This document shows, piece after piece, positions 28,569 to 58,939 of a stretch of DNA of 64,000 nt. A program made the translations under genes and the position numbers. The stretch comes from Pseudoroseomonas cervicalis. GTDB taxonomy: Bacteria; Pseudomonadota; Alphaproteobacteria; Acetobacterales; Acetobacteraceae. Every line of letters begins with the position of its first letter. The first letter of the stretch is position 1. Below the pieces are notes generated by a model. The model saw only the letters and a list, made by a program, of their open reading frames with translations, searched no databases and had not been told where the DNA came from. Location: assembly GCF_030818485.1 (NCBI RefSeq), contig NZ_JAUTAJ010000002.1, forward strand, positions 248,001 to 312,000. Reading direction: 5' to 3'.

Positions 28569-29047
28569 GTCTCGCGCACCGTCACATCCAGCGTCGCCGG
28601 GCGCAGCACCGTCTCGAAGGCCACCTGCTCCGGCGCCGGGTCGGTGCGCAGGATGGCCTCGACGCGCAGCTTCAGGCTGCGGTCCAGCGCCTCGCGCTGC
28701 GGTTCGGCCAGGCTGACATTCAGCGCCGCGAGGCGCGGCTCGAAGCGGCGCAGCACCGCCTCCACCTCGCGCGCCAGCGCCTCGCGCGCCTCCTCGGTGG
28801 TGAAGCTGCCGGCGGTCGGGTCGGGCACGCCATAGCCGAGCGGCGAGACGGCGAGTTCCGTCAGGCCGGGCGGCAGCGGGCGGCGGCGGCGGCGGGCGTT
28901 CAGCAGCGCCTCCACATCGCGCCGCACCGCGTCGCGCATCACGGCGATGGCCATGGGCTGGGTCAGCGGCGGGTCGGGCGGCCCGTCCGGGTCGCCATCC
29001 AGCAGCCGGTCCAGCAGCGGCAGATGGATGCGCCTGGCCTCGCTCAT
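28565..29047 (-). CDS. tssE: T6SS baseplate protein TssE (gp25-like)
   Basis: TssE resembles phage T4 gp25 and starts sheath polymerisation on the baseplate. The 160-aa protein has an N-terminal LPLLDRLLDGD block, the conserved LAVSPLGYGVPD segment, and the gp25 EPR-like core VLRRFEPRLAALNVSL. It overlaps tagJ and tssF by four bases at each end. Confidence 0.92.
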   Translation of the reverse strand: MSEARRIHLPLLDRLLDGDPDGPPDPPLTQPMAIAVMRDAVRRDVEALLNARRRRRPLPPGLTELAVSPLGYGVPDPTAGSFTTEEAREALAREVEAVLRRFEPRLAALNVSLAEPQREALDRSLKLRVEAILRTDPAPEQVAFETVLRPATLDVTVRET

Positions 29048-37973: not shown

Positions 37974-38732
37974 TCAGCGGGCGGGCGGGCGCGGCAGGCC
38001 GGGCAACGTGTCCTCGGCGCCGTCCTGGCGCAGCACCACGGCGCTGACATTGTCGCGCGCCCCGGCGGCGACGGCGCCCTGCACCAGCGCCGCCGCATCG
38101 GCGCCCTGGCGCAGCAGCCGCGCGATCGCCTCCTCCGGCAGCGCCTTGAACAGCCCGTCGCTGCACAGCAGGAAGACATCGCCCGGTTGCACCGCATCCG
38201 ACACCTTGTCGAGCAGCAGCGGCGCGTCGCCGCCGCCCACCGCGCGCAGGATGATGTTTGCCTGCGGGTGGCGCTCCGCCGCCTCGGCCGCCAGCTCGCC
38301 CCGGTCGACCATCTCCTGCACCAGGGAATGGTCGCGGGTCAGCATCTGCAGCACGCCCTCGCGCAGCCGGTAGGCGCGGCTGTCGCCGGCCCAGAGGCAG
38401 GCGAAATGCCGGCTGCGCAGCAGCAGGGCGACGACGGTGCTGGCCATCACCCGGCCCTGCCCCTGCTCCGCCGCGCGGCGGCGCAGCGCCTCATGCGTGG
38501 CGCTCAGCCGCAGCCGCAGCTGCGCCAGCATCTCGGCCGCCGAGAGGCCGGGCGGGATGCCCTCCAGCGCGCTGGCGACGGCGGCGGCCGCCACATCGCC
38601 GCCGCCATGCCCCCCTGCCCCATCGGCCACCGCCCAGAGGCCGAGATCGGGGCGGTGCACCACCGCATCCTCGTTCCTGGACCGCACCGTGCCGACATGG
38701 GTGCGCGCATCGGAGCGCAGACCGGGGATCAT
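37974..38732 (-). CDS. pppA: PP2C-family Ser/Thr phosphatase PppA (T6SS regulator)
   Basis: PppA removes the activating phosphate from the FHA protein or TssL in threonine-phosphorylation-controlled T6SSs. The 252-aa protein has the PP2C metal-site motifs: THVGTVRSRNEDAV, LWAVADGAGGHGGGD, CLWAGDSRAYRL, FLLCSDGLF and GARDNVSAVVL. The ATG overlaps the tagF stop (ATGA). It is the last gene of the vgrG-pppA operon. Its opposing kinase PpkA is not in the window. Confidence 0.92.
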   Translation of the reverse strand: MIPGLRSDARTHVGTVRSRNEDAVVHRPDLGLWAVADGAGGHGGGDVAAAAVASALEGIPPGLSAAEMLAQLRLRLSATHEALRRRAAEQGQGRVMASTVVALLLRSRHFACLWAGDSRAYRLREGVLQMLTRDHSLVQEMVDRGELAAEAAERHPQANIILRAVGGGDAPLLLDKVSDAVQPGDVFLLCSDGLFKALPEEAIARLLRQGADAAALVQGAVAAGARDNVSAVVLRQDGAEDTLPGLPRPPAR

Positions 38733-39232
38733 GCCGGCGCCTGGCCCAGCAGGCGCAGCGCATGCGGCAGCGGCGGCAGGGCCGGCACCGCCCATTCCAG
38801 CGCCGCATTCCACCAGCCGCGCGGCGCGCCGCTGCCCTCGGGCGGCGGCAGGCTGGCCAGCAGCGCATCGGCGGGGCTGGCGGCGGCGATGGCCATATGG
38901 GCCGCCTCGGCCAGGGCGGCGAACCAGCCCTCCGCCGCATCGGCCACGGGGGCGGCCAGCAGCAGCGGGAAGCGCCGCCCCACCGCATCGCGCGAGGCCG
39001 CCATCACGCCGCAGAGCGGCGCCGCGCCGCAGGCGCCCCCGGGTAGCGACAGGCACCAGCAGGGCATCGCATCCCAGGCCGCGGCGAAGGGCTGCGCGCC
39101 CAGCCGCGCCGGCCCCGCCTGCAGCAGCGACGCCGCCCAGCCATCCCAGGCGGCGACGGCATCGCCCGGCAGGTTGCGGCGGATGAAATCGCCATGCGCC
39201 GGCAGCTTGCCGTAGAGGCCGGTCGCGCTCAC
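38729..39232 (-). CDS. tagF: T6SS-associated protein TagF (ImpM)
   Basis: TagF is a post-translational repressor of T6SS assembly. The 167-aa protein shows the ImpM start GLYGKLPAHGDFIRRNLP, then a tryptophan-rich SciT-like body (AAWDGWAASLLQAG, AWDAMPCWCLSL). It starts at GTG 39232, overlapping the tssM stop. In Agrobacterium TagF is fused to PppA; here the two are separate but overlapping genes. The length is that of short single-domain ImpM proteins. Confidence 0.9.
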   Translation of the reverse strand: MSATGLYGKLPAHGDFIRRNLPGDAVAAWDGWAASLLQAGPARLGAQPFAAAWDAMPCWCLSLPGGACGAAPLCGVMAASRDAVGRRFPLLLAAPVADAAEGWFAALAEAAHMAIAAASPADALLASLPPPEGSGAPRGWWNAALEWAVPALPPLPHALRLLGQAPA

Positions 39233-42200
39233 GGCGCCAGCACGGGGCAGCGGAAGCGCGACAGCTCCGCCAGGTTGAAGGGGTTGGTGCTGCTGCCCGG
39301 CCGCAGCTCGAAGATCGCGCCGCGGTCGCCATGGGCGATGGTCAGGCGGTAGCGCTCCCCGGCCAGGCGCTGCAGTGTGGCATGCGGGCCCATCACCAGC
39401 CGCAGCGAGGACCAGCCGCCATCCAGCGTCAGGCTGCCGGCATAGCCGGGCGGGGTGAAGACCAGGCTGACATTGCCCCGCGCCGGCCAGGAGAGCAGCA
39501 CGGGACGGCCGGTGCCGGTCGGCGGCAGCTCGTTGCGCACCCCATCCGCCTCCAGCACCGCGCTGTTGGAGTTGAGGTCGAGCCCCTGCGGGATCAGCTC
39601 GAAGCGCAGCCCGGTGCCGGCGACACCCGGAAAAAACGCGTCGCGGATCGCCTGGGCGCGCTGGAACTGCGCCAGATCGGCCGCCGTCACCGGCGGCGCC
39701 AGCCCGTCGGTCGCCATCGGCCGCCAGGGATTCTGCGTGGTGTCGGCATAGGGGCGGATATTCTGGGCGAAGAACTGCTCCAGCACGCCGCCGGGGGCGA
39801 AGAGCCGGGCGAAATCATCCACCGGCACATCGGCACCGTCGCGGCGCAGCGGGAAACGGCCCTCCACCGCGCGGCAGAGCGGCGCGATCTGCTGCTGCGC
39901 CGCGGCGGCGATCGCCGCCTTGGCGCCGCCGGCCCGCGCCTGCTGCGTCGATTGCGCCAGAGCGCGCAGCCATTTCGCCAGGGGCTCGGGCTGGCGCGCC
40001 GCCTCGGCCAGCAGGCGCTGGCCGGGGTCCAGCGTGCCGCCCGCCGGCGGCGGCAGCGCCGTGCCCGGCGGCAGCGAGGCCAGCCGCGCCACCTGCACAT
40101 ACAGCTCGCTGACGCTGCGCAGGATGTCTTCCAGCGGCGCGCCGGCGGCTTCGCGCAGGGCGGCGAAACGCGGCTCGACGATGCCGCCCACCATCGCCGC
40201 CGGCCCGACCGGCTGCGGCGCGCCGCCGCCGGCCGGCGCCACCTTCTCGGCCACGGCCGAGGGGGTGAGCTGCGCGGTGATGCCCTGCAGCAGCCCGCGC
40301 AGCGGCGAGTTGGGCGCGCCCAGGATGTTCAGCCCCTCCGCCGCCGCCGGCAGGCCGGCGAAGGGCGGCAGCACCAGATCGTCCAGCAGCGCCTGCCAGG
40401 CATCGCCATAGTCGCGGGCGTAGAGGGCCAGCACCTCGGCCTCCAGCCGCGCCGGGTCCTCGGCGCCGGTCTGGGCGGCCTCGGGGCCCAGCACCCAGCC
40501 CTCGGCGGCGGCGGCGCGCACCGCCCCGGCCAAATTGGGCAGCAGCGCCTGGCGCAGCCCGTCCAGCGTGTAGAGGCCGGGCACGCCCTCGGTCAGCGGC
40601 CGGCTGGAGGCCCGCACGAAGTAGCGCTGCCCGGCGGCGCCCAGCGCATCAGCCGGGCGCCAGGGCGCCAGCGCCTCGCCCGCCGGGCGCAGCCGCGAAT
40701 AGACGCGGCCGGCCATGGGCAGGCGGGAGAAGACGCGCCGCGCCGTGTCCACCAGCGCGCCATCGATCGGGTAGCGGGCGAAATCCTGCGCCAGCAGCGC
40801 GTCCAGATGGCGCGCCAGTGCCTCGCGCGCCGGAAGGTGGATGGCGCCGGGGTAGAGCACCGCCCAGTCGGCCAGCACCCAGCGGCGCAGCAGCGCGGCA
40901 TCCAGCGGCCCTTCGCGGCCCAGCATCAGATAGGCGCGGGTGGTCTCGTACAGCGCCTCCTGCTGGGTCAGCTCGGCGCGCATGCGGCTCTCCATGCGGG
41001 CCAGCAGGCGCGGCAGCAGGGTGCGGTCCAGCGCGTGGCGATAGGCGATGCGGCCGCCGGCCGCCAGCTTCTCCGCCTGGTCGAGGCCGAGCAGCCCCTC
41101 CTCCCGCCCCGCCGCATCCGGCAGGTCGCGCGCGGCGTCGAGAGAGGGCAGCACGCGCAGGAAATCGGCCTCGGTCACCGGGTCGAAGGGGATGCCCTGC
41201 GCGGCCTCCTCGGCCTTGGCGACGGCCTGCTGCACCGCCTCGGCGCGGCGCTGCTCCGCGGCGCGGCTGGACCAGCCCCAGATGCCACCCCCCAGCAGCA
41301 GCAGCAGCGCCAGCCCCCAGGCGGTGGCGGCCAGGATGCGGCTGCGCCGCTCGGCGCGGCGGTCGCGCGCGGCCAGCCGTGCCTCGCGGAACACCACATC
41401 CCGCAGCAGCCGGCCGAGGAAGAAGCTGCGCCCCTGCTGGCCGCCGGCGCGCGCCACGCGCTGCCCGTCCAGGCCGAAGCTGCGCGACAGCGCGCCGGCC
41501 AGCCGGTCGATCGGCGAACCTTCCTGGGTGCCGGAGGTGAAATAGACGCCGCGCAGAAACAGCGCCGGATCCATCCGTGTGCCGCCGAAGGCGGCCTCGG
41601 CGAAGTCGCGCACCGGCTGTTCCAGCGAGGCGAATTGCGCCGGGAAGCCGGCGATGGCGGCGCGCTGGGCCGGGCCGCGCTCGGCCTGCAGGCGTTCCAG
41701 CAGCCGGTCCTCGAGCCGCCCCAGCAGCGCCTGGAATTCGGCGCCGAAGCGGGCCAGCGGGCCCTCCGGCCCGGTCTGGGCGGGAAAGGTGAAGCCCCAG
41801 ACCTGGGCGCGGCTGTCACGGTCCAGATCGTCGAAGCTCTCGGTGAAGCCGGGCAGCAGGTCGGCCTTGGTGACCAGCAGATAGACCGGCAGGCGCTGGC
41901 CAAGCTTCTCTTCGAGTTCGCGGATGCGGCGGCGGACGGTGCGGGCATGCGCCTCACGCCCGGCGGCGTCCAGGCTGGCCAGGAGGTCGGTGCCGAAAGC
42001 CACCAGCACGCCATTCAGCGGCTGGCGGGGCCGGGTGCGGCGCAGCAGGCCGAGAAAACTCTCCCAGCCCGCGCGGTCGGCGGCGGCGTCGGAATCCTGG
42101 GTGGTGTAGCGGCCGGCGGTGTCGAGCAGCACGGCGCGGTCGGAGAGCCACCAATCGCAATGCCGCGTGCCGCCGATGCCGGGCAGCTTGCCCTCGGCCA

Positions 42201-45376: not shown

Positions 45377-45378
45377 GA

Positions 45379-46905
45379 TCAACCCCGCCCGCCGCGCAGC
45401 GCGTCTTCATAGGCCCGGGCGAAGGCCTTGCCGAAGGCGCTGTCGAAATCATCGTCGAACTGATCGGAGGTGGCGCGGTGCAGCGCCTTGTAGCGATCCC
45501 ACAGCCGCTTCTCGCGCGCGCCGGGCATCAGCCCGCCGCCCTGGTCCTCCGCCTCCAGCCGCGCGGGTGCGAGGCGGTCGAGCAGCGCGCGCGCCGCCGC
45601 CTGCGTCGCCGCCAGGCCCGCCGCCTGATGCGCGGCGAGGTCGGTCACGATCTCCTGCACCGCGGCGGCGGCGTCGGGCGCGCTCAGCAGCCCCTGCAGC
45701 GCGGCGGCGTCGGAGGCGGCGAATTTCACCGGGTTGTTGCCGCTGGCGCGCAGCATGGTCTGCTCGATGCGGAATTCCCGCTTGGCGTCGGCGCGGGCGA
45801 TCAGCAGGGCGCGCAGCCCGGCCAGGGCGAGGCGGCTGAGCTGGCCGGCGGCGTGCAGCGCGGCCTCCGGCGCGACGCCCGCCAAAGCATGCGGCGGCAG
45901 GGCCGCGCCTTGCAGGAAGGCGGCGAGCAGCGCGTCCGGCGCGCCGGGCTGGGGCGGCGCGGCCGGATAGGCCATGGGCGCCGGGGCGGCGGCGAAGGGC
46001 GCCACGGGCGGCGGCATGGGGGCCGGAGATGGAGCCGGGGCCGGGGCCGGGGCCGGGGCCGGGGCGGGCGCGAAGGGCAGCGCGGCAGCGGCGGGCGGCG
46101 GCACGGGCGCGGGCGCGGGCGGCACGGAAGCCGGTGGCGGGTCGAAGGGCAGGCCCGCATCGGCCGCTGGCGGCGGCGGCGCGACCGGCGGGGCGGGCGG
46201 CGGCGCGAAGGGCGCCTGCGCCGGAAGTGGGGGCGCGGGCGGCGGCGGCGCGGCGCCCGGCAGGTCCAGATCCCAATCCTCCGGGATGGTGGCGGCCGCA
46301 TGGGCGGAGGGCGGGCGGAAGGCGTCGTTCGTCGAGGGGCGATGGTCGGGCATCGGCGCCTCGCCCTCGCCGAAGGGGTCGAGCGGCGCGGGGCCGGTCT
46401 CGCCGAAGGGGCGGTGCGGCGGCGGCGGCGGCGCCATCGGGTCGAAGAGCGGGTCCAGCGCCGCGCCGGGCGGGGCGGCGAAGGGATCGGCGCCGCGCCA
46501 GGGCTCGGCGCTGGCGCCGGCCGGCGGCGCGCTTTCGGGCGCCATCGGCAGGCTGCCCTGCAGCAGGCTGCTCTCCGCCGCCGGGCGCGCCGCCTGGGCC
46601 AGGCGCAGCTCGATCTCCCAGGCGCCGAAGCGCAGCCGGTCGCCATCCGAGACCGGCACGGCTCGGTCGCGCCCGACCGGCGCCCCGGCCTGGTTCAGAT
46701 AGGTGCCATTGGTCGAGAGGTCGCGCAGCTGCCAGCCGCCGGCGCGGAACTCCAGCACGCAATGACGCTTGGACAGCACCCGGTCCGGGTCCGGCAGCAC
46801 CCAGTCATTGCCCGGGCCGCGGCCGATCGAGAAATCCCCCCGCGCCTGCCGCGTCTCCGGCACGGCACTGTCGGGGCAGCGCAGCACCGCCAGGGTCAGT
46901 TCCAT
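45379..46905 (-). CDS. tagH: T6SS FHA-domain protein TagH (Fha/ImpI)
   Basis: The 508-aa protein has three parts. An N-terminal FHA phosphothreonine-binding domain (about residues 20-100) shows FSIGRGPGNDWVLPD, SKRHCVLEF and LSTNGTYLN. A long Ala/Pro linker (about 115-330) is probably disordered. A C-terminal TagH/VasC domain has LIARADAKREFRIEQTML, GNNPVKFAAS and FDSAFGKAFARAYEDAL. It is the phospho-sensing switch of threonine-controlled T6SSs. GGAGGAG precedes ATG 46905. The linker has strong strand asymmetry from repeated Pro codons. Confidence 0.93.
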   Translation of the reverse strand: MELTLAVLRCPDSAVPETRQARGDFSIGRGPGNDWVLPDPDRVLSKRHCVLEFRAGGWQLRDLSTNGTYLNQAGAPVGRDRAVPVSDGDRLRFGAWEIELRLAQAARPAAESSLLQGSLPMAPESAPPAGASAEPWRGADPFAAPPGAALDPLFDPMAPPPPPHRPFGETGPAPLDPFGEGEAPMPDHRPSTNDAFRPPSAHAAATIPEDWDLDLPGAAPPPPAPPLPAQAPFAPPPAPPVAPPPPAADAGLPFDPPPASVPPAPAPVPPPAAAALPFAPAPAPAPAPAPAPSPAPMPPPVAPFAAAPAPMAYPAAPPQPGAPDALLAAFLQGAALPPHALAGVAPEAALHAAGQLSRLALAGLRALLIARADAKREFRIEQTMLRASGNNPVKFAASDAAALQGLLSAPDAAAAVQEIVTDLAAHQAAGLAATQAAARALLDRLAPARLEAEDQGGGLMPGAREKRLWDRYKALHRATSDQFDDDFDSAFGKAFARAYEDALRGGRG

Positions 46906-47563: not shown

Positions 47564-49372
47564 TCAATTGATGCGGACGATGCCGCCCTGCAGGATCATG
47601 GTGCCGGCGGCCTCCTCCTGGATCAGCGGCGCCTCGACCTTCACCGACCCGCCGGCCTTGGCGTGGATCAGCGTGCCCTCGATGGTGACGCCGGAGGGGT
47701 CGATGGTGATCTTCGAGCCACCCACCGTCAGGGTGATCGACTGCATCGCCTCGATCTCGATCTTGCCCTGCTCGGCGCTGACAGAAATGTTGCCCTTCTC
47801 GACCACCAGGCTGTCATGGCCCTTCTGCAGCCGGGCGCTGCGATTGTCGCGCACCAGGAGGTTCATGTCCTTCTCGGCCTGGAGATAGACCTCCTCCGAC
47901 CCGGCCTTGTCCTCCATGCGCAGGATGTTGGCGTTCTCCGGCCCGCCGCCCTTGGAGGAGCGGGTGGAGATCCAGCTCTGCGTCATGTTGCCGGGCAGCG
48001 CCTGGGCGTGGCGCGCCGGGTCGTTGTACAGGCTGCCGATGACCACGGGCTTGTCCGGGTCGCCATCCATGAAGCCCACCAGCACCTCGTCGCCGACGCG
48101 CGGCAGGAACCAGGTGCCGCCCCAGCTGCCGGCCCAGGGCTGCGCCACGCGCACCCAGCAGGAGGAGCCGTCATGCCGCGGCCCGGCGCGGTCCCAGTGG
48201 AAATGCACCTTCACCCGGCCATGCTCGTCGCAATGGATCTCGCCGCCCTCGGGGCCGGTGACGATGGCCGATTGCAGGCCGGGGATGGTCGGGCGCGGCC
48301 AGGCGGTGGGGCGGCGCCAGCTGCGCGCGGCCGGGATCAGCGTCAGGCTGTTGCCGTAATGCGTGCCGCCGCCGCCCACCATGTGGCTGTCATCGACGGC
48401 GTTGTGGGTGATGCCGGTGACCAGCCAGGGCACCGGCGCGGCACCCAGGGCGGGCGCCACCATGACGCGGCCGCCGGCGAACAGGGCCGGTTCGGCACCC
48501 TGGGCGCGCACCGTCTCCGCCGCCGCCTCCTCGCGCTCCATGGCCAGCCGCGCCGGATCGGCATCCGGGCGCGGCGCCTGCTGGCCGGGCCAGGAGAACA
48601 GCTCGGCCTCGGCCCTGGAACTGGCCAGCATGGTGCTGGAATTGGCGTTCAGCAGCGCGCCGGGGCGCAGCAGATCGTAATCCAGCGCCGCCGCCTTGCC
48701 GGGCCGCTGCTGGGTGGAGGCGGCCCAGTCCCACAGCGTGTCCGGCCCGCCATTCTCGGCGCCCGGGCGGCTGGTCAGCGGCGGGCAGGGAATGGAAGGG
48801 AAATCGGCATTGGCGCCGGTGATGTGCAGCGTGTGCTCGCCCATCTCGTGGCGGAAGAAATAGCCGCCGCCGACCTCGTCGATCAGCCGCTGCACGAAAT
48901 CGAGATCCGTCTCGTTCCACTGCACGCAGTAATTGCGCGGTGCGCCGGGCAGGCTGCCGAAGCGCACCGGGCTGACCTGCCCTTCCTCCAGCACCGTCTG
49001 CACGATCTGCTTGGCGCTCTGGCTCTGGAAGATGCGGCAATCCGAAGTGCGGGTGAGCTGCCAGAGCCGCGGCAGCGCCACCATGCGATAGCGGCTGAAG
49101 CCGCGCTCGTAATCGCCGGTGCGGCTGAAGGCCTGCACCATGCCGTGGAAATGCCGCGGCGGCCGGCCGGGCGGCGCCACGGTGCAGGTGATGCCGCGGC
49201 CGATCATCTCATCCGGCGTGATGTCCGGGCGCAGCGACACCGCCTCCGCCTCGATGCTGTAGAGGGCGCCGATCTGCTCGCTGACATGCAGCGCGCGCAG
49301 CACCAGCACATCGGGGCCGAGCGGCGTCGTCATCTGCAACAGGCGATCCGCCTGCACCAAGCCGGACGACAT
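47564..49372 (-). CDS. vgrG: T6SS spike protein VgrG (TssI)
   Basis: The 602-aa spike protein has a gp27-like N-terminal half with IFQSQSAKQIVQTVLEE and YCVQWNETDLDFVQRLIDEVGGGYFF. The gp5 OB-fold has GEIHCDEHGRVKVHFHWDR, WVRVAQPWAGSWGGTWFLPRVGDEVLVGFMDGDPDKP and VIGSLYN, followed by a beta-needle. It ends at the needle with no C-terminal effector domain. ATG 49372 is preferred because AAGGGA precedes it. It heads the minus-strand operon. No PAAR gene is in the window. Confidence 0.94.
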   Translation of the reverse strand: MSSGLVQADRLLQMTTPLGPDVLVLRALHVSEQIGALYSIEAEAVSLRPDITPDEMIGRGITCTVAPPGRPPRHFHGMVQAFSRTGDYERGFSRYRMVALPRLWQLTRTSDCRIFQSQSAKQIVQTVLEEGQVSPVRFGSLPGAPRNYCVQWNETDLDFVQRLIDEVGGGYFFRHEMGEHTLHITGANADFPSIPCPPLTSRPGAENGGPDTLWDWAASTQQRPGKAAALDYDLLRPGALLNANSSTMLASSRAEAELFSWPGQQAPRPDADPARLAMEREEAAAETVRAQGAEPALFAGGRVMVAPALGAAPVPWLVTGITHNAVDDSHMVGGGGTHYGNSLTLIPAARSWRRPTAWPRPTIPGLQSAIVTGPEGGEIHCDEHGRVKVHFHWDRAGPRHDGSSCWVRVAQPWAGSWGGTWFLPRVGDEVLVGFMDGDPDKPVVIGSLYNDPARHAQALPGNMTQSWISTRSSKGGGPENANILRMEDKAGSEEVYLQAEKDMNLLVRDNRSARLQKGHDSLVVEKGNISVSAEQGKIEIEAMQSITLTVGGSKITIDPSGVTIEGTLIHAKAGGSVKVEAPLIQEEAAGTMILQGGIVRIN

Positions 49373-49579
49373 GCGTTTCCCTTCGCCATCGGCGCGCCGG
49401 ACGCAGCTCGATCCTGCAGGGCGCCAGTTCAACGCTGCATTTTCTCACGATCACGCCCCGCGCGGTAGGGGCGCAGCCCCGCCCCGGGCCAAACGCTTTC
49501 TTGATCGGCGCGCTGCTTGCGCCGGATCGCCGCGACCGGCAGCCAGCCAGGGCGGATCGACAAGGGAGCGGAACCGCCC

Positions 49580-50173
49580 ATGACCCAGGCATTGAACGAG
49601 GAGGCGTTCTCGCAGTCGCATTGGCTGCTGCTCGCCAAGGGCTTCAACCTGCAGGATTGGTATGGCAGGCCGCAGCACGGCACGGCGGTGGAGCGCAATG
49701 GCGGGATCGAGAACCCGAACCGCACGCGGCTGCATGCGCGGCGCACGCTGTATTACCGCTTCGCCGATTCCCGCTATGGCGAGGATGGCCAGCAGGGCGG
49801 CGGCTGGTGGCTGGAATATGAGCAGCTGGAGAAGGTGATGCGCGGCTGCGCGGCGCGCGGCCTCAATCTCGGCCAGATGGCGCGGCATTTCCTGGCCGTG
49901 CCCTGGGAGTGGAGCCATATCGACCGCGTCATCTCGGCGGTGTTCGAGCAGCCGATGGACGCCTATGAGGGGCGCGGCCGGCCGGTTGAGCTGACCGGGC
50001 GCTATGGCGGGCGCAACAGCGTCGATGACGGCCAGGGCTATGGCGGCGACCGCAATGTGATCCAGCTTTTCATCCCGGCGATGCGCCAGCATTGGCGCCA
50101 GGCGCTGGGCCAGGTGCGGGTGCAGGACATCCGCGATTTCGCGCGCGGCCACCGCGACCTGATCCGCGTCTGA
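49580..50173 (+). CDS. Unrecognised 197-aa protein beside the T6SS
   Basis: The gene is divergent from vgrG across 207 bases. The 197-aa protein has no signal peptide or membrane segment and is rich in Arg, Gly, Tyr and Trp, for example FNLQDWYGRPQHG, TLYYRFADSRYGEDG and GGGWWLEYEQLEK. I recognise no family. Soluble, aromatic-rich proteins next to vgrG can be effectors, chaperones or immunity proteins, but nothing here decides. Codon use looks like the neighbours, and conserved-looking aromatic blocks argue for a real gene. Confidence 0.6.
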   Translation: MTQALNEEAFSQSHWLLLAKGFNLQDWYGRPQHGTAVERNGGIENPNRTRLHARRTLYYRFADSRYGEDGQQGGGWWLEYEQLEKVMRGCAARGLNLGQMARHFLAVPWEWSHIDRVISAVFEQPMDAYEGRGRPVELTGRYGGRNSVDDGQGYGGDRNVIQLFIPAMRQHWRQALGQVRVQDIRDFARGHRDLIRV

Positions 50174-50205: not shown

Positions 50206-50231
50206 CGCGCCGCGCTTCTCAGCGCGGCGCG
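50206..50231. terminator. GC hairpin between convergent genes
   Basis: A 10-bp perfect stem (CGCGCCGCGC type arms at 50206-50215 and 50222-50231) with loop TTCTCA contains the stop codon of the minus-strand caspase gene. It probably ends both convergent transcripts; there is no T-tract. Confidence 0.45.
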
Positions 50232-53200
50232 ATGCCCAGCGGGAAGCTGCGCAGGTCGCGCGTCGCGGTGCGGAACACCGCGTTCTGCCGGTGCTGCTTC
50301 TCGCTGGCCAGTTCCGGCACGCGGCGCGAGACATATTCGCCGAGCGCCAGCGCGCTGATCCGCCCATCGCTGTCCTTGGCCGCGCGCCCCGCCAGCCCCT
50401 CGCGCAGCGCATAGGCGAAGACGCCATTGCGGTCGTCATAGCTGTCCAGCGCCTCCTGCACCGAGGAGGAGGCGGCGAGCAGATAGCGCCCCGTCTCATT
50501 GCCCAGCGCCGAAAGGCTGTCCAGCGCCACCTGCCCCGCATAGCAGGTGTCGATCAGCAGAAAACCGTCACGGGCGCGGATGCGGGCCAGCGCCGAGATC
50601 AGCGCGTCATCATCCAGCGCCCGCCGCGCCGCCTCGGTCATCGAGCGCGGGCGGCCGATATCGGCGGGCAGGAACAGGAAGCGCCCATTCTCCTCCACCC
50701 GCACGCCATGGCCGGCGATGTAGAAAACGAAAGTGTCCTCCGGCCGCACCCGGCGTGCCGCATCGTCCAGCGCGCGCAGGATGCCCTCGCGCGTCGCATC
50801 GGCATCCAGCAGCAGGGTGGTGTCGACGCCCTCGAACAGCCCGACGCTGCCGGCGCGCAGCGTGTCGACCACGGTGCGCGCATCCGGCACGGCGAAGCGC
50901 AGATCCATGTCCGGCACGCCGTAATTGTTGACGCCGACGGCCAGGATCACCAGCCGCCCCGCCCCGGGCGGCGGCGCCGCCTGGCCCTCGCGCCGCAGCT
51001 CCAGCCCCGGCCCTTCCGAGAACAGCCCCCGATCGGCGGCGTAGAGCCGCGTCGCGATGGTGTTGGGCCCGGGGTCGAGCGGGATCTCCGCCTGGAAGGG
51101 CGCGTCGCCGCGTGCCTCGCCGCTGCCGCGCGGCGCATCGATGCGCGCGGCGATGCGGCCATTCAGCAGCACGTCGAGCGGGCCGAGGCCGAGGCCGCGA
51201 TCCTGCGGCAGCACGGTGAAGCGCAGCGCCGTCGCCTCGGCCGGCAGCGAGGCCTCGGTCCAGCTCAGCACCGGGCAGGTGCCGTCGGGCATCACGGCGC
51301 AGATCTCGCCGGGCCGCGCCAGCGGCGTGTGGCCGATGCGGGCGCGCAGATCGGCCAGCCGGCCCGCCTGCGGCAGCACGCCGCCGATGCGCGCGCGCAC
51401 CGCCTGCGGCGCGTAGAGCGCGCGATAGGCCTGCTGGAAGCTGGCCCATTCCGGCGTCGCCGCGCGGCCCTCATTCAGGTGCACGCCGACCAGCTCCTGC
51501 CCGCCGGAGGGCGCGTGGTCGAACAGCCCTTCCGGTGTCCACAGCGCCCAGCGCTGCGTGTCGGGCTGGATGAACAGGGCGGCGCGCTCGGTGATGCGGT
51601 TCTCCGCCAGACCGTACCAGCGCAGCGTGCCATCGGCATGGGCGGCGACCAGCAGCGAGCCATCCTGGGTCAGCGCCAGACCCCAGCTGGCACCGGGGCC
51701 GGTCACCGCATCCAGCTGGTTGCCGCGCGCGTCGTAGAGCCGCAGATGCGTGTCGGTGCCGAGCACGAAGCCAAGCCCGCCCGGCAGCACCGCGGCGCTG
51801 CGGGCGAATTCGCCCTGGCCCAGCGCCAGCGGCCGGCCATTCAGCCGCGGCTGGGTGGAGTTGCGCCATTGCGTCAGGCTGATGCCGCCCTCGCTGTCGC
51901 TGGCCGGGCGCAGCCCGTCATTCTCCATCGGCTTGGTCGGGCGCAGCTCGCCGCGCGCCACGTCGAAACCCAGCGCCGGCAGGCCGGGGCGCGGCACCAC
52001 GCGCAGCCGCATGCCGTCGGCGCTCAGCGCCAGGCTGTCGCCCGTGGCGCGGAACTCGGCGGTGCCGGAGCGCGGGGCGAGGGCCAGCCTGCCATCGGGC
52101 GCCAGCCTGCCCCAGCCGGGATCGGCGGCGGCGAAGGCCAGGCCGCCCTGCGGCAGCGGCAGCAGCTGGGCGATGGAATCCCGCGCGGCGCCGATATCGG
52201 TGGCCGGGCCCAGGCCGAAATCCGCCCAGCGGCGGATGACGAAGCGGCGCGGCACGGCGCTGTCGGCCGGGCGCGCCTGCGGCGGCGCGGCGGCGGCGGG
52301 GACAGAGGGCTCCGGCGAGGGCGGGCGGATGCCACGGCCGCCTTGTGTGGCAGCATTGGCGGGGGTGCCACCGCCCGGCTGCGGCGCCACGCTGGCACCG
52401 CCGGCGGCGCGGCCGGGCGCGCTGGGCTCGCCCCGCGCATAACCTGCGGCGTAGAGCTGCACGCCGCCGCGGCCATCGCTGGCCCAGGCGACCGCCGGCA
52501 GCCCCTCCCCCTGCAGGCCGGAGGCATCGGGCAGCGCGACGCTGCGCAGATCGGGCAGCGCCAGGATCTCGACCCGCAGCCGGTCCTCATAGCCCACCGC
52601 CAGCAGCGTGCCATCGGGCGAGAGGGCGATGCCGAAGGGCCGCGCATTGGCCAGCGGCGCGCGCTCGGCCAGCTTGCGGCCGCGCGGGTCGTAGAGGCGC
52701 AGCTTCCCATCGGCGCTGCTGCTGGCCAGCCTGCCCTCGCGGTCGAAGGCGACCATGCGGGCCGGGCCGGCATAGGCCGTGTCGTCGAACACGGCGCGGC
52801 CGGTGCGCGCATCCCAGACCCGGATGCCGGCGCGGCCGCCAAGGGCCGCCGCCAGCCGCGTGCCATCGGGCGAGACCGCCAGATGCTGCACCGGCGCCGG
52901 CAGGCCCGGCAGCCGCGCCGCCAGCCGCCCGGTGCCGGTGTCGAAGACATAGATGCAGAAACTGCCATCCCAGGCGCGGCAGGTGTTGCCGGCGGCGAAG
53001 GCGCGGCTGCCATCGGGGGAGAGGGCGACGGCGTAGAGCTCGCCTTCCTCCGCCTCGCCGATCGGCGGGCGCAGCACGCCGCGCGGCGTGCCATCCGGCA
53101 GCGACCACAGGCGCAGCGTCTTGTCGTCGCTGGCGCTGGCCAGCAGCCGTCCGGCGGCATCGGTCGCCAGACGCGCGACGGGGGCGGTGTGCGCCCCCGT

Positions 53201-53338
53201 CTCGATGCGCAGGATGGGCTGCTGCGGCGGGTCCTGCAGCGCCTGCCCCAGCACGGGGGAGGCCAGCAGCAGGGCCAGGCCAATGGGCAGGCCCGTGGAC
53301 AAGCCCGTGGCCAGGCCCCGCAGCATCCTGCGCATCAT
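50219..53338 (-). CDS. Exported WD40-repeat protein with C-terminal caspase-like (C14) peptidase domain
   Basis: The 1039-aa protein has an N-terminal signal peptide (hydrophobic to about residue 32, ending VLGQA). A WD40-type beta-propeller covers about 45-310 and 370-620, with repeats such as LASASDDKTLRLWSL and LAVSPDGTRLAAALGG, split by an Ala/Pro insert. A bacterial caspase domain covers about 800-1039. The dyad is His877 (YIAGHGVRV) and Cys932 (LLIDTCYAGQ). Propeller-caspases are usually sensor-protease pairs; this one appears periplasmic. It lies next to the T6SS and seven bases after a lipoprotein gene. The exact start among neighbouring Met codons is unsure. Confidence 0.88.
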   Translation of the reverse strand: MMRRMLRGLATGLSTGLPIGLALLLASPVLGQALQDPPQQPILRIETGAHTAPVARLATDAAGRLLASASDDKTLRLWSLPDGTPRGVLRPPIGEAEEGELYAVALSPDGSRAFAAGNTCRAWDGSFCIYVFDTGTGRLAARLPGLPAPVQHLAVSPDGTRLAAALGGRAGIRVWDARTGRAVFDDTAYAGPARMVAFDREGRLASSSADGKLRLYDPRGRKLAERAPLANARPFGIALSPDGTLLAVGYEDRLRVEILALPDLRSVALPDASGLQGEGLPAVAWASDGRGGVQLYAAGYARGEPSAPGRAAGGASVAPQPGGGTPANAATQGGRGIRPPSPEPSVPAAAAPPQARPADSAVPRRFVIRRWADFGLGPATDIGAARDSIAQLLPLPQGGLAFAAADPGWGRLAPDGRLALAPRSGTAEFRATGDSLALSADGMRLRVVPRPGLPALGFDVARGELRPTKPMENDGLRPASDSEGGISLTQWRNSTQPRLNGRPLALGQGEFARSAAVLPGGLGFVLGTDTHLRLYDARGNQLDAVTGPGASWGLALTQDGSLLVAAHADGTLRWYGLAENRITERAALFIQPDTQRWALWTPEGLFDHAPSGGQELVGVHLNEGRAATPEWASFQQAYRALYAPQAVRARIGGVLPQAGRLADLRARIGHTPLARPGEICAVMPDGTCPVLSWTEASLPAEATALRFTVLPQDRGLGLGPLDVLLNGRIAARIDAPRGSGEARGDAPFQAEIPLDPGPNTIATRLYAADRGLFSEGPGLELRREGQAAPPPGAGRLVILAVGVNNYGVPDMDLRFAVPDARTVVDTLRAGSVGLFEGVDTTLLLDADATREGILRALDDAARRVRPEDTFVFYIAGHGVRVEENGRFLFLPADIGRPRSMTEAARRALDDDALISALARIRARDGFLLIDTCYAGQVALDSLSALGNETGRYLLAASSSVQEALDSYDDRNGVFAYALREGLAGRAAKDSDGRISALALGEYVSRRVPELASEKQHRQNAVFRTATRDLRSFPLGIAPR

Positions 53339-53345
53339 GCGCGGA

Positions 53346-54338
53346 TCAGCTCGCCGCCAGCTCGAAGCCGGTGGCGGCCGCGCTCTGCGCCTGCGTCACG
53401 CTCTCCGCGAAATTGTCGCGGCGGGCGATGTTGCTGGCGGCCAGCGAACGCGCATCGCCCGACACGCCGGTCGGCGTCACGCGCGGCGTGCCGAGATTGC
53501 GGCGATTGGCGAAGGAATCGGTGGTGACATAGCCGCGCTGGCCGCTCGCCGTCTCCACCAGCGCATAGCTGCCGCTGGCCGGGCGCGCCTGCACCGCGCT
53601 GCGCGCCGCCACCTTGCCGATCTCGGGCGAGGCCGGATCCGGGCGCAGCCGCAGCACCGCCTCGCGGCTCACCTGCACCTGGCGCATCGGCGCCTGGCGC
53701 GCCGCCAGGGTGGTCTTGGTGGTGCCGGGGGCGACGCTCTCCACCGCCGTGTCGAACTCGGCGCCGCGCTTGCTGATGTTCTGGCTGATGGTCTGCGCCA
53801 GCGCGATCTCGCGCTGGGTGCGCTCGCGCAGCTGCGTCATGCGCGCCTCGGCCGTCGGGCGGTCCAGGCTGCCATTGGCGACCGCGGCACGGATCTCCTG
53901 CGCCTGGCGGAAGCGGCAATCCATCAGCTGGTCGAAGGCGAGCTGGGTGCGGTCGAGCTCGGCATTCTCGCGCTCCAGATCGGAGGCGAGCGAGGCGCGC
54001 AGCCCGGCCTGGTCCTGGTTGCGCTGCTGCAGCGCGTAGAGATAGCCGCCCGCCGCGCCGGCCACGGCGCCGGTGGCCGCACCGATCGCGGCACCGCGCC
54101 AGTTCTGGCCGATGGCGCCGCCCAGCAGCGCGCCGCCCACGGCGCCGAGCGCCGCGCCCTTTAGGATGTCCTCGGCGAAGAAATTGCCGGTGCTGTCGAG
54201 AGCGACCAGCTGCGCGCGGCAGGAATCGGTGCCGTCATCCGCGCCGATCCGCCCCTCGCGCGTCAGCGGCGTGGCGCAGCCGGCGAGCAGGCTGAGGGAG
54301 GTGACGAGGGCGACGGCACGCCGCGCTTGGACTGGCAT
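53346..54338 (-). CDS. Glycine-zipper lipoprotein with coiled coil and SH3-like C-terminus
   Basis: The 330-aa precursor has a lipoprotein signal with lipobox LLAGC near residue 21. A glycine zipper (GAALGAVGGALLGGAIGQ and GAAIGAATGAVAGAAGGYL, about 60-98) can insert in or span a membrane. A helical stretch (about 105-200) is followed by a bacterial-SH3-like part (VLRLRPDPASPEIGKV, GSYALVETASGQRGYV). It is cotranscribed with the caspase gene seven bases downstream and could tether or signal to it. An outer-membrane place is likely. Confidence 0.82.
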   Translation of the reverse strand: MPVQARRAVALVTSLSLLAGCATPLTREGRIGADDGTDSCRAQLVALDSTGNFFAEDILKGAALGAVGGALLGGAIGQNWRGAAIGAATGAVAGAAGGYLYALQQRNQDQAGLRASLASDLERENAELDRTQLAFDQLMDCRFRQAQEIRAAVANGSLDRPTAEARMTQLRERTQREIALAQTISQNISKRGAEFDTAVESVAPGTTKTTLAARQAPMRQVQVSREAVLRLRPDPASPEIGKVAARSAVQARPASGSYALVETASGQRGYVTTDSFANRRNLGTPRVTPTGVSGDARSLAASNIARRDNFAESVTQAQSAAATGFELAAS

Positions 54339-54648
54339 GGCTGGCTTTCCTTTGCAGTAGGCGGGCGGACCCTAACGGCCGCGCTTGTTCATTGCCAAGC
54401 CACGCACGGGCATGGAGCGCAACTTCGCCGTCGCTCTCTCGATCATGTGACGAAGTTTTGCGGCGCACACCGCGCTTTGGCATGGGATGTGGCTGTCACG
54501 CATCAGTTTCAAGCCGGCTGTCATCACATTCGTTTCAGCAGCGCACTGCAATCTCGCCGGCGCTGTCACGCGGCGTTGAAGCGGCGTGGCCTGGACAGCG
54601 GCCGCCCGGACGGCGCCTGTTCGCGCTCTCGGCGCAAGGGGCGCGATC
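54339..54648. promoter_or_regulatory. 310-bp divergent gap, promoters expected
   Basis: The gap lies between the lipoprotein gene (minus) and the M48 protease gene (plus). About 54400-54560 is AT-richer than its surroundings, as expected for back-to-back promoters. I see no convincing ORF, RNA or clear -35/-10 pair in it. Confidence 0.35.
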
Positions 54649-57015
54649 ATGCGAACGGACAAGCCAGGATCGGGAATTCTGCGCGGCGCGAAGCTGCTCG
54701 CCATCACGGTGCTGCTGCCGCTGCTGCTGGCCGGCATCGGCCATTGGCAGGGCCAGCGCGCCATCGAGGCGCGCGACGCGCTGCGCTCCGAGCAGGCGGC
54801 GATGCAGCAGGAGCTGGCGCGGCTGCAGGATTACGCGGCGCGCAACCCGCGCGGCACCGTCCGCATGGATGGGCGGTCCTATGCCGCGCCGCTGGCCATC
54901 GGCATGCTGCAGGGGCGGCAGGATTCGCTCGCCGGCGTCGTCACCGTGGCCGAATACCGCAGCCTGCTGCCGCCGGCGACCCAGGCCATGGCGCTGGCGG
55001 CGGCGGCGCTCAGCGCCCTCGGCCTGCTGGCGGCGCTGCTGCTGGGCCGGCTCGGCCGCGCCTCGCGCGCCTGGCTGCTCACCGCCTTCGGCATCGTCCG
55101 CCGCGCTCTGCCCTTCCACATGGCGCTGCAGCTGCTGCTGCTGACCGGCGCAGTGCTGGCGGCGATGGGCTTCGAGGTGGCCGGAATCTGGCACCAGGGC
55201 CGGCTCGGCCAGGGCGAGGTCAAGCTGGCGGTCTGGGCCGGGCTGCTCGGCCTCGGCGCGCTGGTGATGCTGGTGCAGGCGCTGCGCCAGCTGCGCACCG
55301 CGCTGACCCTGTTCACGCCGGAGCCGCTGCCGCTGCTCGGCCGCTGCGTCGATGAGGGGGCGGCGCCCGGCCTGTGGCGCGATTTGCGCGGCCTGGCCGG
55401 CCGCGCCGGCGCGGCGGTGCCGGACCAGCTGGTGCTGGGCCTGACCGACGGCTTCTTCGTCACCTCGGGCGAGATCCTGCTGCTGCCGGAGCAGCGCCGG
55501 TTGCGGGGCCGCACCCTGCATGTGCCGCTGCCGCTGCTGGCCAGCCTGGACCGCGAGGAGGCGCTGGCCATCATCGGCCATGAGCTCGGCCATTTCTGCG
55601 GCGAGGACACCGAATACAGCCGCCGCTTCGTGCCGATCTATGCCGGCGTGGCGCGCAGCCTGGAGGCGGTGGCGCAGCACCAATCGGGCAGTTTCGGCCT
55701 GCTGACGCGGCCGGCGCTGATGCTCGGCGAATTCGTCATGCGGCAATTCGACCACGCGGTGCATCACTGGAGCCGGCAGCGCGAATTCGCCGCCGACGGC
55801 GTCGGCGCCTGGCTGTCGACCCCGCAGGCCGCGGCCAGCGCCCTGCTGCGCAGCGGCGCCCTGGCGGCGCCGCTCAACCAGGGCCTGGCCCGGGCGGTGG
55901 AGGCCGGCCCCGCCGCCGCGCCCGACCTGCTGGCGGCCACGCTGCAGCATGCCGAGGCTGCCGGGCCCGGCGATCCGCTGGAGCATCTGGAGGAGCGCCA
56001 GCCGCACCCGACGGACACCCACCCGCCGACCAGCCAGCGCCTCGCCGCGCTGGGCGAGGCGGTGACACCCGCCCTGCTGGCGCGCGCCACGCGGCCGGTG
56101 CAGCCGGCGGCCTCGCCGCTGGCCGCCTGGTTCGCCGATCCGGCGGGGCTGGCGCGCGCGCTCAGCGCCGATCTGCGCCAGGACATCGCGCGCGAGGAGG
56201 AGGCGATGGCCGGCGTGCTGCGCGCCGCGGCCGAGGCGGTGCAGGCGGGGGAGCGGCCGCTCTACCCCGGCACCCGCCGGCTGGGTCTGTTCTTCCTCGG
56301 CCTCGCCGCGCTGGCGCTGCTGGGCGGGCTCGGCACCGCCGCCTATCTGGCGCTGCAATTCCCCGGGGTGGAGCGTGCCGCCTGGATCGCCACGCTCGGG
56401 GTGCTGCCGATCCTGGCGGCGATCCTCGGCCTGACCGGCTGGCTGCAGCTGCGCCGCGCCCGGCATGCCTTCCTGGTGCTGTCGCCGGAGGGTTTCTCGC
56501 ATCCCGCCCTGGCCGCGCCGGTGCCCTGGCGCGATCTGGCGGACATCGCCGTCACCCAGGCGCAGATGAACCTGATCACCGAGTTCCGCCTGCATCGCGG
56601 CCGGCCGATGCCGCAGCTGCGGGAGAAGCGCCGGGTGCTGCGCATCGACCTGCCGGCCAAGCGCATCACCCTGCTCTCCCCCGCGGCGGAGGGGCTGAAG
56701 CCGCAGGCCTATCTGGACCTGCTGATGACCTATTGGCACGCCGCCCTGGCGCGCGAGGAACTGGCCGAGCGCGAAGCGGCCGCCGCCGCCGTCGCGCCCG
56801 AGCCGGCGCTGGCGGAGGAGGATCCGGACGCCACGCTGCGCCAGACGGCGCCGCCCGCCGGCCCCTGGGGGACCGCCGCTGGCCCTGACACTGGCCCTGG
56901 CGCTCGCCCCTGGGGGGTCGCCGCCGTAACGGCGCGCCCGGGCGCGGCGGCCGCGGCGTCGGGCGCCGCATCCCAGGCCCCGGCACCGCCGCCGGCGCGC
57001 CCGCCCGGCCCCTGA
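54649..57015 (+). CDS. Membrane-bound M48-family metalloprotease
   Basis: The 788-aa protein has an N-terminal transmembrane helix, then hydrophobic segments near 105-130, 158-185 and 200-220. The zinc site HELGH is at His311-Glu312-His315, with a third ligand Glu379 in REFAADGVG. Two more helices lie near 545-610, and an Ala/Pro-rich tail ends it. The catalytic order fits M48 (HtpX/Ste24-like) peptidases, which cut membrane or periplasmic proteins. AAGGGG precedes the ATG. It is divergent from the lipoprotein-caspase pair and may belong with it. Confidence 0.87.
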   Translation: MRTDKPGSGILRGAKLLAITVLLPLLLAGIGHWQGQRAIEARDALRSEQAAMQQELARLQDYAARNPRGTVRMDGRSYAAPLAIGMLQGRQDSLAGVVTVAEYRSLLPPATQAMALAAAALSALGLLAALLLGRLGRASRAWLLTAFGIVRRALPFHMALQLLLLTGAVLAAMGFEVAGIWHQGRLGQGEVKLAVWAGLLGLGALVMLVQALRQLRTALTLFTPEPLPLLGRCVDEGAAPGLWRDLRGLAGRAGAAVPDQLVLGLTDGFFVTSGEILLLPEQRRLRGRTLHVPLPLLASLDREEALAIIGHELGHFCGEDTEYSRRFVPIYAGVARSLEAVAQHQSGSFGLLTRPALMLGEFVMRQFDHAVHHWSRQREFAADGVGAWLSTPQAAASALLRSGALAAPLNQGLARAVEAGPAAAPDLLAATLQHAEAAGPGDPLEHLEERQPHPTDTHPPTSQRLAALGEAVTPALLARATRPVQPAASPLAAWFADPAGLARALSADLRQDIAREEEAMAGVLRAAAEAVQAGERPLYPGTRRLGLFFLGLAALALLGGLGTAAYLALQFPGVERAAWIATLGVLPILAAILGLTGWLQLRRARHAFLVLSPEGFSHPALAAPVPWRDLADIAVTQAQMNLITEFRLHRGRPMPQLREKRRVLRIDLPAKRITLLSPAAEGLKPQAYLDLLMTYWHAALAREELAEREAAAAAVAPEPALAEEDPDATLRQTAPPAGPWGTAAGPDTGPGARPWGVAAVTARPGAAAAASGAASQAPAPPPARPPGP

Positions 57016-57027
57016 GCGGGCGCCGCC

Positions 57028-58779
57028 TCAGGCCGCCTGGCTGCTATCCTCGGCCGGCAGCGGCCGGCGCTCGGCGCTGAGCGGGATCTCGATGTCGCAG
57101 ACCAGCCCGCTCTCCGGCCAGGAGAGCAGCAGGCTGCCGCCGAGCTGGCCGCGCACCACCGAGACCAGCACGCGCGAGCCGAAGCCGCGCCGCTGCGGCG
57201 GGCCCTTGGCGCGCGGCCCGCCCAGCTCGCGCCAGCGCAGCGCCAGCGTGTCGCCGGCGACGCCGTCGCGCGCCGTGCAGCGCCAGCACACCTCCACCCG
57301 GCCGCCCGGCTGCGACAGCGCGCCATGCTTCAGCGCATTCGTCGCCAGCTCATGCATCGCCATGGCCAGCGGCTGCGCCGCGGTGGGCGGCAGCAGCACC
57401 GGCGGCCCCTCCAGCTCGGCACGTGGGCCATGGATGTCGCCATCCAGCGCCACGAAGGGCGCCAGCTCGGCGCGCAGCAGCGCGGTCAGGCTGGCGCCGC
57501 GCCAGCGATCCTCGGCCAGAAGGGTCTGCACCCGGGCCAGGGCGGCCACCCGCCCCTCCACCGAGGCGGCATAGGCCACCGGATCGTCCTTCGGCGTCAG
57601 CCGCAGCGCCGCCTGCACCACCGCCAGGGCGTTCTTGCAGCGATGGTCCACCTCCCGCGCCAGCAGGCGCTGGCGGGCCTCGCTGGCCTGCAGCGCGGCG
57701 GTGCGCTGCGCCACACGCCGCTCCAGCCCGGCGTTCAGCTCATGCAGCGCCTGGCTGCGCCGCCGCACCAGCAGGCCGAGGCCGAGCAGCGCCGCCGCTG
57801 CCGCCACGGCGAAGGCGCCATAGACGAAAAGCCGGCCGCGCCAGGGCGCCAGCACCGCATCCCAGGGCACGCCATAGACCATCCGCACCGGGAAGCCTTG
57901 CAGCTTGCGCACCACCAGCAGCCGCTCGATCCCGTCGATGCGCGAGGCGATGCGCACCGCGACCCCCTCCGGCACAGCGGCGGTGAGCTGCGCCACCACC
58001 GGCGGCGGCGGCTGCTGCGGCACATTCTCGGGCAGCGCCGGGCGGCGCACCAGGATCACCCCATCCTCCCGCTGCAGCGAGACCACCACGTCGCGCCCCG
58101 GCACCGCGCGGTCCCAGAAGCTGGTGAAGGTGCTCTGCCGGATGCCGGCGGCGACGATGCCGAGGAAGCCGCCCTGCGCCGTGCTGCGGCGCTGGCTGTA
58201 GAACAGCACCGGCGAGCCATCGGCGCGGCTGCGCACCGGGGCGCCGAGATGCGGTTCCGACTGCGCCCGGCCGGCATGCCAGGCGAAGTATTCGCGGTCG
58301 GAGGCGTCGATGCCGGGGGGCGGCACGGGGCGGTCGCTCTCCACCAATGGCCGGCCGGCGGCGTCGAAGACGACGATGCCGAGCGCGCCGCGCGCCTGGC
58401 GCCGCAGCGCCGACAGGAAGCTGTGGTGCCGCTCCTGGTCGGCCAGGATCTCCGCCGGGGTCAGCGTGCCCAGCCATTGCTCGGCGGCGCCGAGCGCCAG
58501 GCGCTCGAATTGCAGCAGGTTCTCGGCATGGCCGCGCAGCGTCTCCGAGGTGCTGAGCAGGTCATGCCGCGCCGCCGCCACGGTCTGCTGGCGGTCATAG
58601 CCGGCCACCGCGCCGAACAGCAGCAGCGGCAGCACCAGGGAGGCGGCCAGCAACAGGTCGATGGCGTGCGGCCGGCGCCAGGAGGCGCCGCGCAGCGCGC
58701 CCCGCCGGCGGCGCCGTGCCACCTGGGGTGCCAGGCCCGGCCCGGCCGGGCCGCTCGCCGCCGAAATCTCACCAGCCAT
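57028..58779 (-). CDS. HWE/HisKA_2-type sensor histidine kinase with periplasmic sensor
   Basis: The 583-aa inner-membrane kinase has a transmembrane helix near 40-60 and a periplasmic dCACHE-like sensor (about 65-310, with DREYFAWHAGRAQSEPHLGAPV). A second helix lies near 318-340, and a short coil leads to the kinase core: phospho-acceptor His near residue 379 in REVDHRCKNALAVVQ, N-box HELATNALKHGALS, and the W-x-E block WRELGG. This HWE-type set suggests general-stress or light/chemical signalling. ATG 58779 has GGGGA six bases upstream. No response regulator gene adjoins it. Confidence 0.88.
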   Translation of the reverse strand: MAGEISAASGPAGPGLAPQVARRRRRGALRGASWRRPHAIDLLLAASLVLPLLLFGAVAGYDRQQTVAAARHDLLSTSETLRGHAENLLQFERLALGAAEQWLGTLTPAEILADQERHHSFLSALRRQARGALGIVVFDAAGRPLVESDRPVPPPGIDASDREYFAWHAGRAQSEPHLGAPVRSRADGSPVLFYSQRRSTAQGGFLGIVAAGIRQSTFTSFWDRAVPGRDVVVSLQREDGVILVRRPALPENVPQQPPPPVVAQLTAAVPEGVAVRIASRIDGIERLLVVRKLQGFPVRMVYGVPWDAVLAPWRGRLFVYGAFAVAAAAALLGLGLLVRRRSQALHELNAGLERRVAQRTAALQASEARQRLLAREVDHRCKNALAVVQAALRLTPKDDPVAYAASVEGRVAALARVQTLLAEDRWRGASLTALLRAELAPFVALDGDIHGPRAELEGPPVLLPPTAAQPLAMAMHELATNALKHGALSQPGGRVEVCWRCTARDGVAGDTLALRWRELGGPRAKGPPQRRGFGSRVLVSVVRGQLGGSLLLSWPESGLVCDIEIPLSAERRPLPAEDSSQAA

Positions 58780-58939
58780 GGTCATTCCCCACGGGCCGGC
58801 CGGCCTTCTGCCGGCGCCGCCCGCTGGACGGGTCCCGATTCACGGAACGGACACGGCTCAGGCTAGGCGGCGCGGCGGCGCCAGGGGAAGCAATGCGGTG
58901 CCGCAAATCGCGGCGGCGCGAGCGGGGCGGAAGACCGGC

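Follow-up and report, generated by a model that had tools for sequence, protein, structure and literature searches.

Introduction

Among the closest described counterparts of the locus analyzed here is one found in Pseudomonas where, in the account given in PMC11881912, damage to the outer membrane triggers T6SS assembly via the TagQRST-PpkA pathway, with the outer-membrane lipoprotein TagQ, the periplasmic protein TagR and TagST acting upstream of PpkA. For A. tumefaciens, regulation by PpkA, PppA and Fha is described as present and orthologs of TagQRST as absent (PMC3953482). TssW from Acidovorax citrulli is reported to bind both PpkA and T6SS membrane proteins, and is described as an outer-membrane accessory that sets the place and time of T6SS assembly, a description that likens it to the pair of proteins considered below; the main text of that report names no caspase, the word occurring 0 times (PMC12607579). 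Prokaryotic metacaspases that combine C14 and WD40 domains, as here, have also been described, WD40 being the commonest accessory domain in the survey of PMC3501461, whose main text uses the terms "type VI" and "periplasm" 0 times. The caspase reported here differs from the surveyed WD40 metacaspases in its predicted export, its fixed lipoprotein partner and its association with a T6SS. Among the titles and abstract openings listed in searches of open-licence papers, we found no link between a caspase gene and a T6SS locus.

Results

The window, by which we mean the whole 64,000-nucleotide stretch of Pseudoroseomonas cervicalis DNA that was analyzed, carries at 50219..53338 (minus strand, ATG start) a gene for a 1039-aa WD40-propeller caspase (C14) that is predicted to be exported. 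Residues 1-33 (53240..53338, minus strand) form a predicted Sec signal peptide, recognized by eye from the sequence, and a Sec-type signal peptide is also present in most caspase relatives with a clear start. Pfam identifies WD40 (74.2 bits) and a caspase domain at residues 799-1019 (50282..50944, minus strand; PF00656 Peptidase_C14, 37.7 bits, cut-off 21.4), whose catalytic dyad, His877 (50708..50710, minus strand) and Cys932 (50543..50545, minus strand), is intact in 85/85 copies, counted by alignment over the 85 alignable caspase copies of a redundant set. The caspase gene and the intact His877/Cys932 pair that had been described in the original prediction are confirmed, and export of the product is predicted. 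The protein has the caspase domain and His-Cys dyad of C14 caspases and metacaspases and is a putative protease. The profile of its family hits GSU0716 (E 5e-5) as well as structures of metacaspases, and residues 620-1039 are 99% identical to a P. cervicalis "caspase family protein"; the window's genome gave a single C14 match. For the mature caspase, the AlphaFold model has a mean pLDDT of 79.5 and a pTM of 0.49, which leaves the packing of its domains uncertain, and the matches listed in a fold search with it are propellers or propeller-bearing chains, in agreement with the WD40 and C14 architecture. Assignment to the EACC1-associated caspases (NF047832) was rejected at 73.4 bits against a cut-off of 140. 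An anti-phage defence reading was not favored: a PADLOC scan of the pair and the M48 gene gave only partial or weak matches, to PDLC02987 for the caspase (39.5 bits, partial, positions 6-158 of 453) and to LeoBC for the lipoprotein described next (14.7 bits, weak), and no match for the neighboring M48 gene.

The caspase start lies 7 nt past the stop of a second minus-strand gene (53346..54338), which encodes a 330-aa lipoprotein, probably of the outer-membrane type. Its features are a signal peptide, a lipobox with Cys21 in the motif LLAGC (54276..54278, minus strand; assigned from the sequence), conserved Cys40 and Cys141, a glycine zipper, long helices and an SH3b-like domain. Ala follows LLAGC, Asp is absent at +2, and the lipoprotein is predicted to be sorted to the outer membrane. 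The zipper and the SH3-like end had both been proposed in the original prediction. The zipper, at residues 60-99 (54042..54161, minus strand), stands, as Pfam Gly-zipper_YMGG scores 35.6 bits over a cut-off of 28.9. The case for the SH3b-like domain, at residues 229-273 (53520..53654, minus strand), is weaker: SH3_3 reaches 16.8 bits, under the Pfam cut-off of 27, and strands 199-252 of the mature lipoprotein model resemble bacterial SH3-type domains through weak structural matches. The model (mean pLDDT 85.6) shows a low-confidence zipper, long helices, the SH3b-like domain and a final helix; a fold search with it returned no match at E<=0.001, the best among the matches listed being mostly SH3-type domains.

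Since the gap between them is only 7 nt and both lie on the minus strand, the two genes are probably cotranscribed. Their association was followed in a sample of 100 genomes, from 99 genera, of the window's own family. The C-terminus of the caspase matches 27 of these genomes, 22 of them at E<1e-30 (the carriers), the remaining matches being weaker and to distant caspases, while the lipoprotein matches 35/100, many through the zipper alone. The lipoprotein adjoins the caspase in 21/22 carriers, on one contig and strand. The copy in G072 is divergent (E 2e-10 in one search, missed at 1e-5 in another) and falls into the same protein cluster, and the link in G004 is visible via the N-terminus of the caspase. 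No lipoprotein was found in G069, a draft of 720 pieces in which the caspase match starts about 1 kb into a contig. Lipoprotein matches without such a caspase also exist, the strongest in G039 (8e-26) and G041 (5e-23). Flanks of the pair are otherwise scarcely conserved among the family genomes, and the orthologs of the pair itself, about 40-65% identical to the window's, are kept across many genera.

A separate scan with the lipoprotein alignment gave 129 relatives, of which 80 were kept as named loci, mostly titled Acetobacteraceae, Rhodospirillales or genera thereof, with one from Competibacteraceae. A caspase match follows the lipoprotein on the same strand in 77/80, mostly within about 200 nt; the three loci in which none was found are L107, at a contig end, and L125 and L129, which are second copies. 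By these genome comparisons the lipoprotein and the exported caspase form a conserved two-gene unit.

Variants of the unit were also seen. The second lipoprotein copies of L125 and L129 (Neoroseomonas) are N-terminally shortened and have no caspase match within 10 kb, and a similar extra copy, lacking the zipper, occurs in G028 (L156). Proteobacteria of other families also have the pair (L128 of Competibacteraceae, L189, L190 and L192). The lipoproteins of L189, L190 and L192 have a different C-terminal part and a WD40-caspase downstream on the same strand, L193 has a caspase-domain protein upstream of the lipoprotein, and L191 stops at a contig edge. When the zipper is masked, these lipoproteins from other families can be aligned with those of the window's own family at E 5e-38.

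The original prediction had drawn a third gene into the module, a divergent M48 metalloprotease (54649..57015, plus strand; Peptidase_M48, 46.7 bits, cut-off 20.3). The ORF has a GTG start at 54586 and an in-frame ATG at 54649, and ends at 57015 on the plus strand; its HELGH motif begins at residue 332 in the numbering from the GTG, and the Glu312 that had been named is indeed the Glu of this motif in the numbering from the ATG. The gene is a divergent neighbor of the pair in the window, which speaks for a three-gene module, but relatives of it are found in just 5/100 family genomes, in a search that scored <=10 candidates per genome and could miss distant relatives; they occur together with the caspase only in G000 and G028, and in G028 they lie on different contigs, such that linkage is confined to the window's own genome. 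None was found at the 80 named lipoprotein loci. The original prediction had itself chosen co-occurrence as its test, and under that test the M48 gene drops out (5/100 genomes, 0/80 loci) and the pair stays (21/22 carriers, 77/80 loci). We accordingly reject the M48 protease as a member of the unit, and a three-gene module that includes it is very improbable. Next to the M48 gene stand two tandem HWE histidine kinases whose sensor regions are dCache-like (57028-58785 and 58940-61306 of the window).

Among NCBIfam models the lipoprotein is matched best by TagQ (NF041250), which it resembles in its N-terminal half. At 59.2 bits against a curated cut-off of 300, full membership of that family was rejected; the TagQ model nevertheless matches 15/15 relatives at E<=0.01, with listed scores that are all far below 300. 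Six other glycine-zipper lipoproteins served as controls: four score 12.9-34.4 bits, L158 is not matched at E<=1, and the best 25 of 46 families for L149 do not include TagQ. Three lipoproteins from pairs score 39.1-51.6 bits, and the zipper-less copy L156 gives no match. The lipoproteins of L189-L193, from other families of the phylum, match the model over 169-270 positions. A true TagQ is present in six of 398 genomes from the phylum, and the window's protein ranks first among the remainder, with zipper-only proteins reaching 54 bits. A profile comparison with TagQ gave 162 collinear columns with both cysteines aligned and a score of 115.7 versus 56.6-80.2 for five control lipoproteins. The comparison is uneven, since each control profile consists of one sequence and the six rows for TagQ come from close relatives. 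Once the zipper is masked, significance is lost (E 0.053; controls 0.003-0.075), although the register stays the same and the second cysteine pairs.

A common origin of the lipoprotein and TagQ is thus likely but not proven. Like TagQ of the Pseudomonas H1-T6SS, the window's lipoprotein has a lipobox, a glycine zipper followed by a helical stretch in which conserved cysteines align, and an association with a T6SS, and by analogy it may act from the outer membrane, upstream of a kinase of the PpkA type. Unlike TagQ, it has a C-terminal SH3b-like domain, which is not visible by eye in the TagQ rows, and its partner is a WD40-caspase, whereas that of TagQ is TagR.

The T6SS genes that the original prediction placed beside the pair were identified in the window. 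The neighbors are VgrG, DUF6931, Fha, TssK, TssL, TssM, TagF, a PP2C phosphatase, TssA/B/C/C2/E/F/G, ClpV and Hcp. VgrG (TssI) lies at 47564..49432 (minus strand; TIGR03361, 472 bits), the T6SS Fha protein at 45379..46905 (minus strand; FHA 60 bits, T6SS_FHA_C 156.6 bits) and TssK directly after Fha at 44039-45382 (minus strand; TIGR03353, 524 bits). A PppA-like PP2C phosphatase ORF occupies 37974..39332 (minus strand; PP2C_2, 45.6 bits) and is overlapped, in a different frame, by TagF (38729-39232; TagF_N, 101.7 bits). Parts of the TagQRST-PpkA pathway are therefore present: Fha, the PP2C phosphatase and TagF in the window, and a kinase in the same genome outside it. TssF (26738-29243) is divided between two ORFs that overlap but differ in frame, one covering model positions 1-360 and the other 361-608, which reflects either an assembly frame shift or a broken gene. 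Between vgrG and the caspase, a plus-strand ORF of 218 aa (orf218; 49517-50173) gave no Pfam match; among the 80 named loci it occurs only in L051-L053.

T6SS genes, counted by tblastn, lie inside the fetched flanks of 19/80 named loci, and their arrangements are of at least three kinds. Chance would give 0.7/80; this figure takes the T6SS as 30 kb long, the flanks as complete and the loci as independent and, as the loci are related, is only a guide. In the first arrangement the pair stands before vgrG-DUF6931-fha-tssK, either with orf218 between, as in the window (L051, L052 and L053, which ends past vgrG), or without it (L065, L069, L074, L076, L087, L104 and L105, and L086 with vgrG only). 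In the second, the pair lies between an opposite-strand block running from vgrG to fha or to tssM and clpV/tssA/tssB/tssC (L060, L070, L072, L075, L077, L097 and L114), and in the third it follows fha-tssK-tssL-tssM (L059). The vgrG-linked arrangements, with and without orf218 and clpV-flanked, may represent one ancestral neighborhood, because the pair is upstream of vgrG in one direction in the forms with and without orf218 and divergent from vgrG in the clpV-flanked form; L059 and the kinase loci described below differ.

On the contig that carries TssK, a Ser/Thr kinase is encoded about 19-26 kb away in the carriers G005, G028, G036, G055, G067 and G072 and in the non-carrier G051, in a search of 21 chosen genomes (20 with a match at E<=1e-10) that yields no rate. 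In three loci the kinase is beside the pair itself. Siccirubricoccus phaeus (G063; L034/L058) has lipoprotein, caspase and kinase on the same strand, the kinase following the caspase on contig C32 and TssK being on contig C23; its kinase domain shares 77% identity with the one in the T6SS-cluster kinase of G028, and the only other kinase found in this species scores far lower (128 versus 200 bits). In L093 the kinase is about 2 kb beyond the caspase, and in L081 it is divergent and precedes the lipoprotein. In the window's genome the kinase precedes the window by about 38 kb; its neighbors there, an OmpA-domain gene and a further protein, mark the end of the T6SS cluster in other genomes. By eye, this kinase (L131:6833-9806) seems to run out of frame C-terminally, through either assembly error or decay.

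These neighborhoods bear on the idea that the pair serves self-protection and guards the periplasm, the caspase degrading effectors that rivals deliver or that escape from the cell's own VgrG. In its favor, the pair is associated with the T6SS, it adjoins vgrG in the two commonest T6SS-linked arrangements, and its caspase is an exported putative protease with an intact dyad. Immunity proteins, however, usually diversify quickly and adjoin one effector, whereas this is one orthologous pair, at about 40-65% identity, across many genera and often with no vgrG nearby; self-protection would also leave the kinase neighbors and the TagQ resemblance unexplained. We consider it unlikely.

Co-occurrence with the T6SS was examined by searching for TssK, then TssC, in the same 100 family genomes. 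TssC is present in 54/100, in 21/22 carriers versus 33/78 non-carriers (Fisher p 4.5e-6, with kinship ignored); among the carriers, 19 are over the family cut-off and two drafts, G069 and G091, have partial matches below it. Because 33 genomes of the sample have a T6SS without the pair, the T6SS does not require the pair. TssK is absent from the carriers G035, G045, G087 and G091, three of which have TssC. The exception, G045, is a single contig with neither gene and the only TssC-negative carrier, and in it the caspase is split, the N-terminus falling in a 477-codon ORF and the C-terminus in a 581-codon ORF, and the lipoprotein frame is interrupted by a stop. A T6SS type with tandem TssC, distinguished from others by eye with contig-edge cases judged by hand, is found in 18/22 carriers versus 17/78 non-carriers. 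TssC was also sought in 50 of the 78 named genomes and is over the cut-off in 49/50, including the divergent L127 and L128; it was missing from one, L130, which has a divergent lipoprotein.

It could be argued from the same data that the pair is a general envelope quality-control or cell-death unit that has no direct T6SS role and shares lineage and lifestyle with the T6SS. The co-occurrence statistics ignore kinship, the divergent carrier L130 has no TssC, and among the 20 loci of the pair that were retrieved for the 22 carriers, 18 have no T6SS structural gene within the fetched stretch, such genes being seen only in G000 and G044, with the kinase in G063. Against this, TssC accompanies the pair in 49/50 named genomes, the divergent L127 and L128 among them, the pair is found beside T6SS or kinase genes in several arrangements, and it has decayed in G045, the sample's sole TssC-less carrier. 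We therefore regard a general envelope unit as somewhat unlikely.

Discussion

These genomic data, in which kinship is ignored, support the T6SS link well: the pair is probably a T6SS-associated unit, and it is predicted to lie in the envelope. A more specific reading, to which we give about an even chance, is that the pair is an accessory unit of a T6SS controlled by threonine phosphorylation, acting as an envelope-damage sensor or protease switch that feeds PpkA/PppA/Fha; for a sensing or regulatory role as such, we likewise see the balance as level. Sensing is favored over self-protection because of the resemblance to TagQ and the kinase neighbors.

We infer the following scheme, including location, binding, signal, substrate and any need for proteolysis. 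The N-terminal lipid would anchor the lipoprotein in the outer membrane, the zipper and helices would keep it there, and its SH3b end may contact peptidoglycan. Propellers often bind proteins, and the exported caspase would be kept beside the lipoprotein via its WD40 propeller. Envelope damage would then alter the lipoprotein-caspase complex. In a bolder form of this sensing scheme, which we put forward tentatively and think rather doubtful, T6SS firing would be switched by proteolysis: the TagQ-like lipoprotein would keep the periplasmic caspase at the outer membrane, and upon an envelope hit the presumed cut by the caspase would fall in the presumed target, namely the outer part either of a PpkA-type kinase or of the T6SS membrane complex.

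For the question of how the T6SS is started in alphaproteobacteria that have PpkA, PppA and Fha but no TagQRST, the pair is a direct candidate, and it would define an envelope task for a bacterial caspase homologue. The switch, if true, would fill the seemingly empty sensor slot of alphaproteobacteria with a threonine-phosphorylation T6SS and no TagQRST.

Two further protein families were observed near the T6SS kinase. One is encoded in the window's genome about 41 kb before the window (L131:5723-6973) and has nine relatives; an HExxH motif is present in 10/10 copies, and the two copies scanned gave no Pfam match. It is a possible T6SS-linked metalloprotease, and a better candidate for that than the M48 protein. 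The other is a TPR-CHAT protein (L135:10963-19998; Pfam, L135 only) in which a lipoprotein signal is visible. TPR-CHAT proteins also occur in L140, L141, L143, L144 and L148, often with a giant repeat protein, and none was noticed in the further stretches fetched from carriers. Because five of the six TPR-CHAT genomes are without the WD40-caspase pair, the two caspase-clan proteins may alternate at the T6SS.
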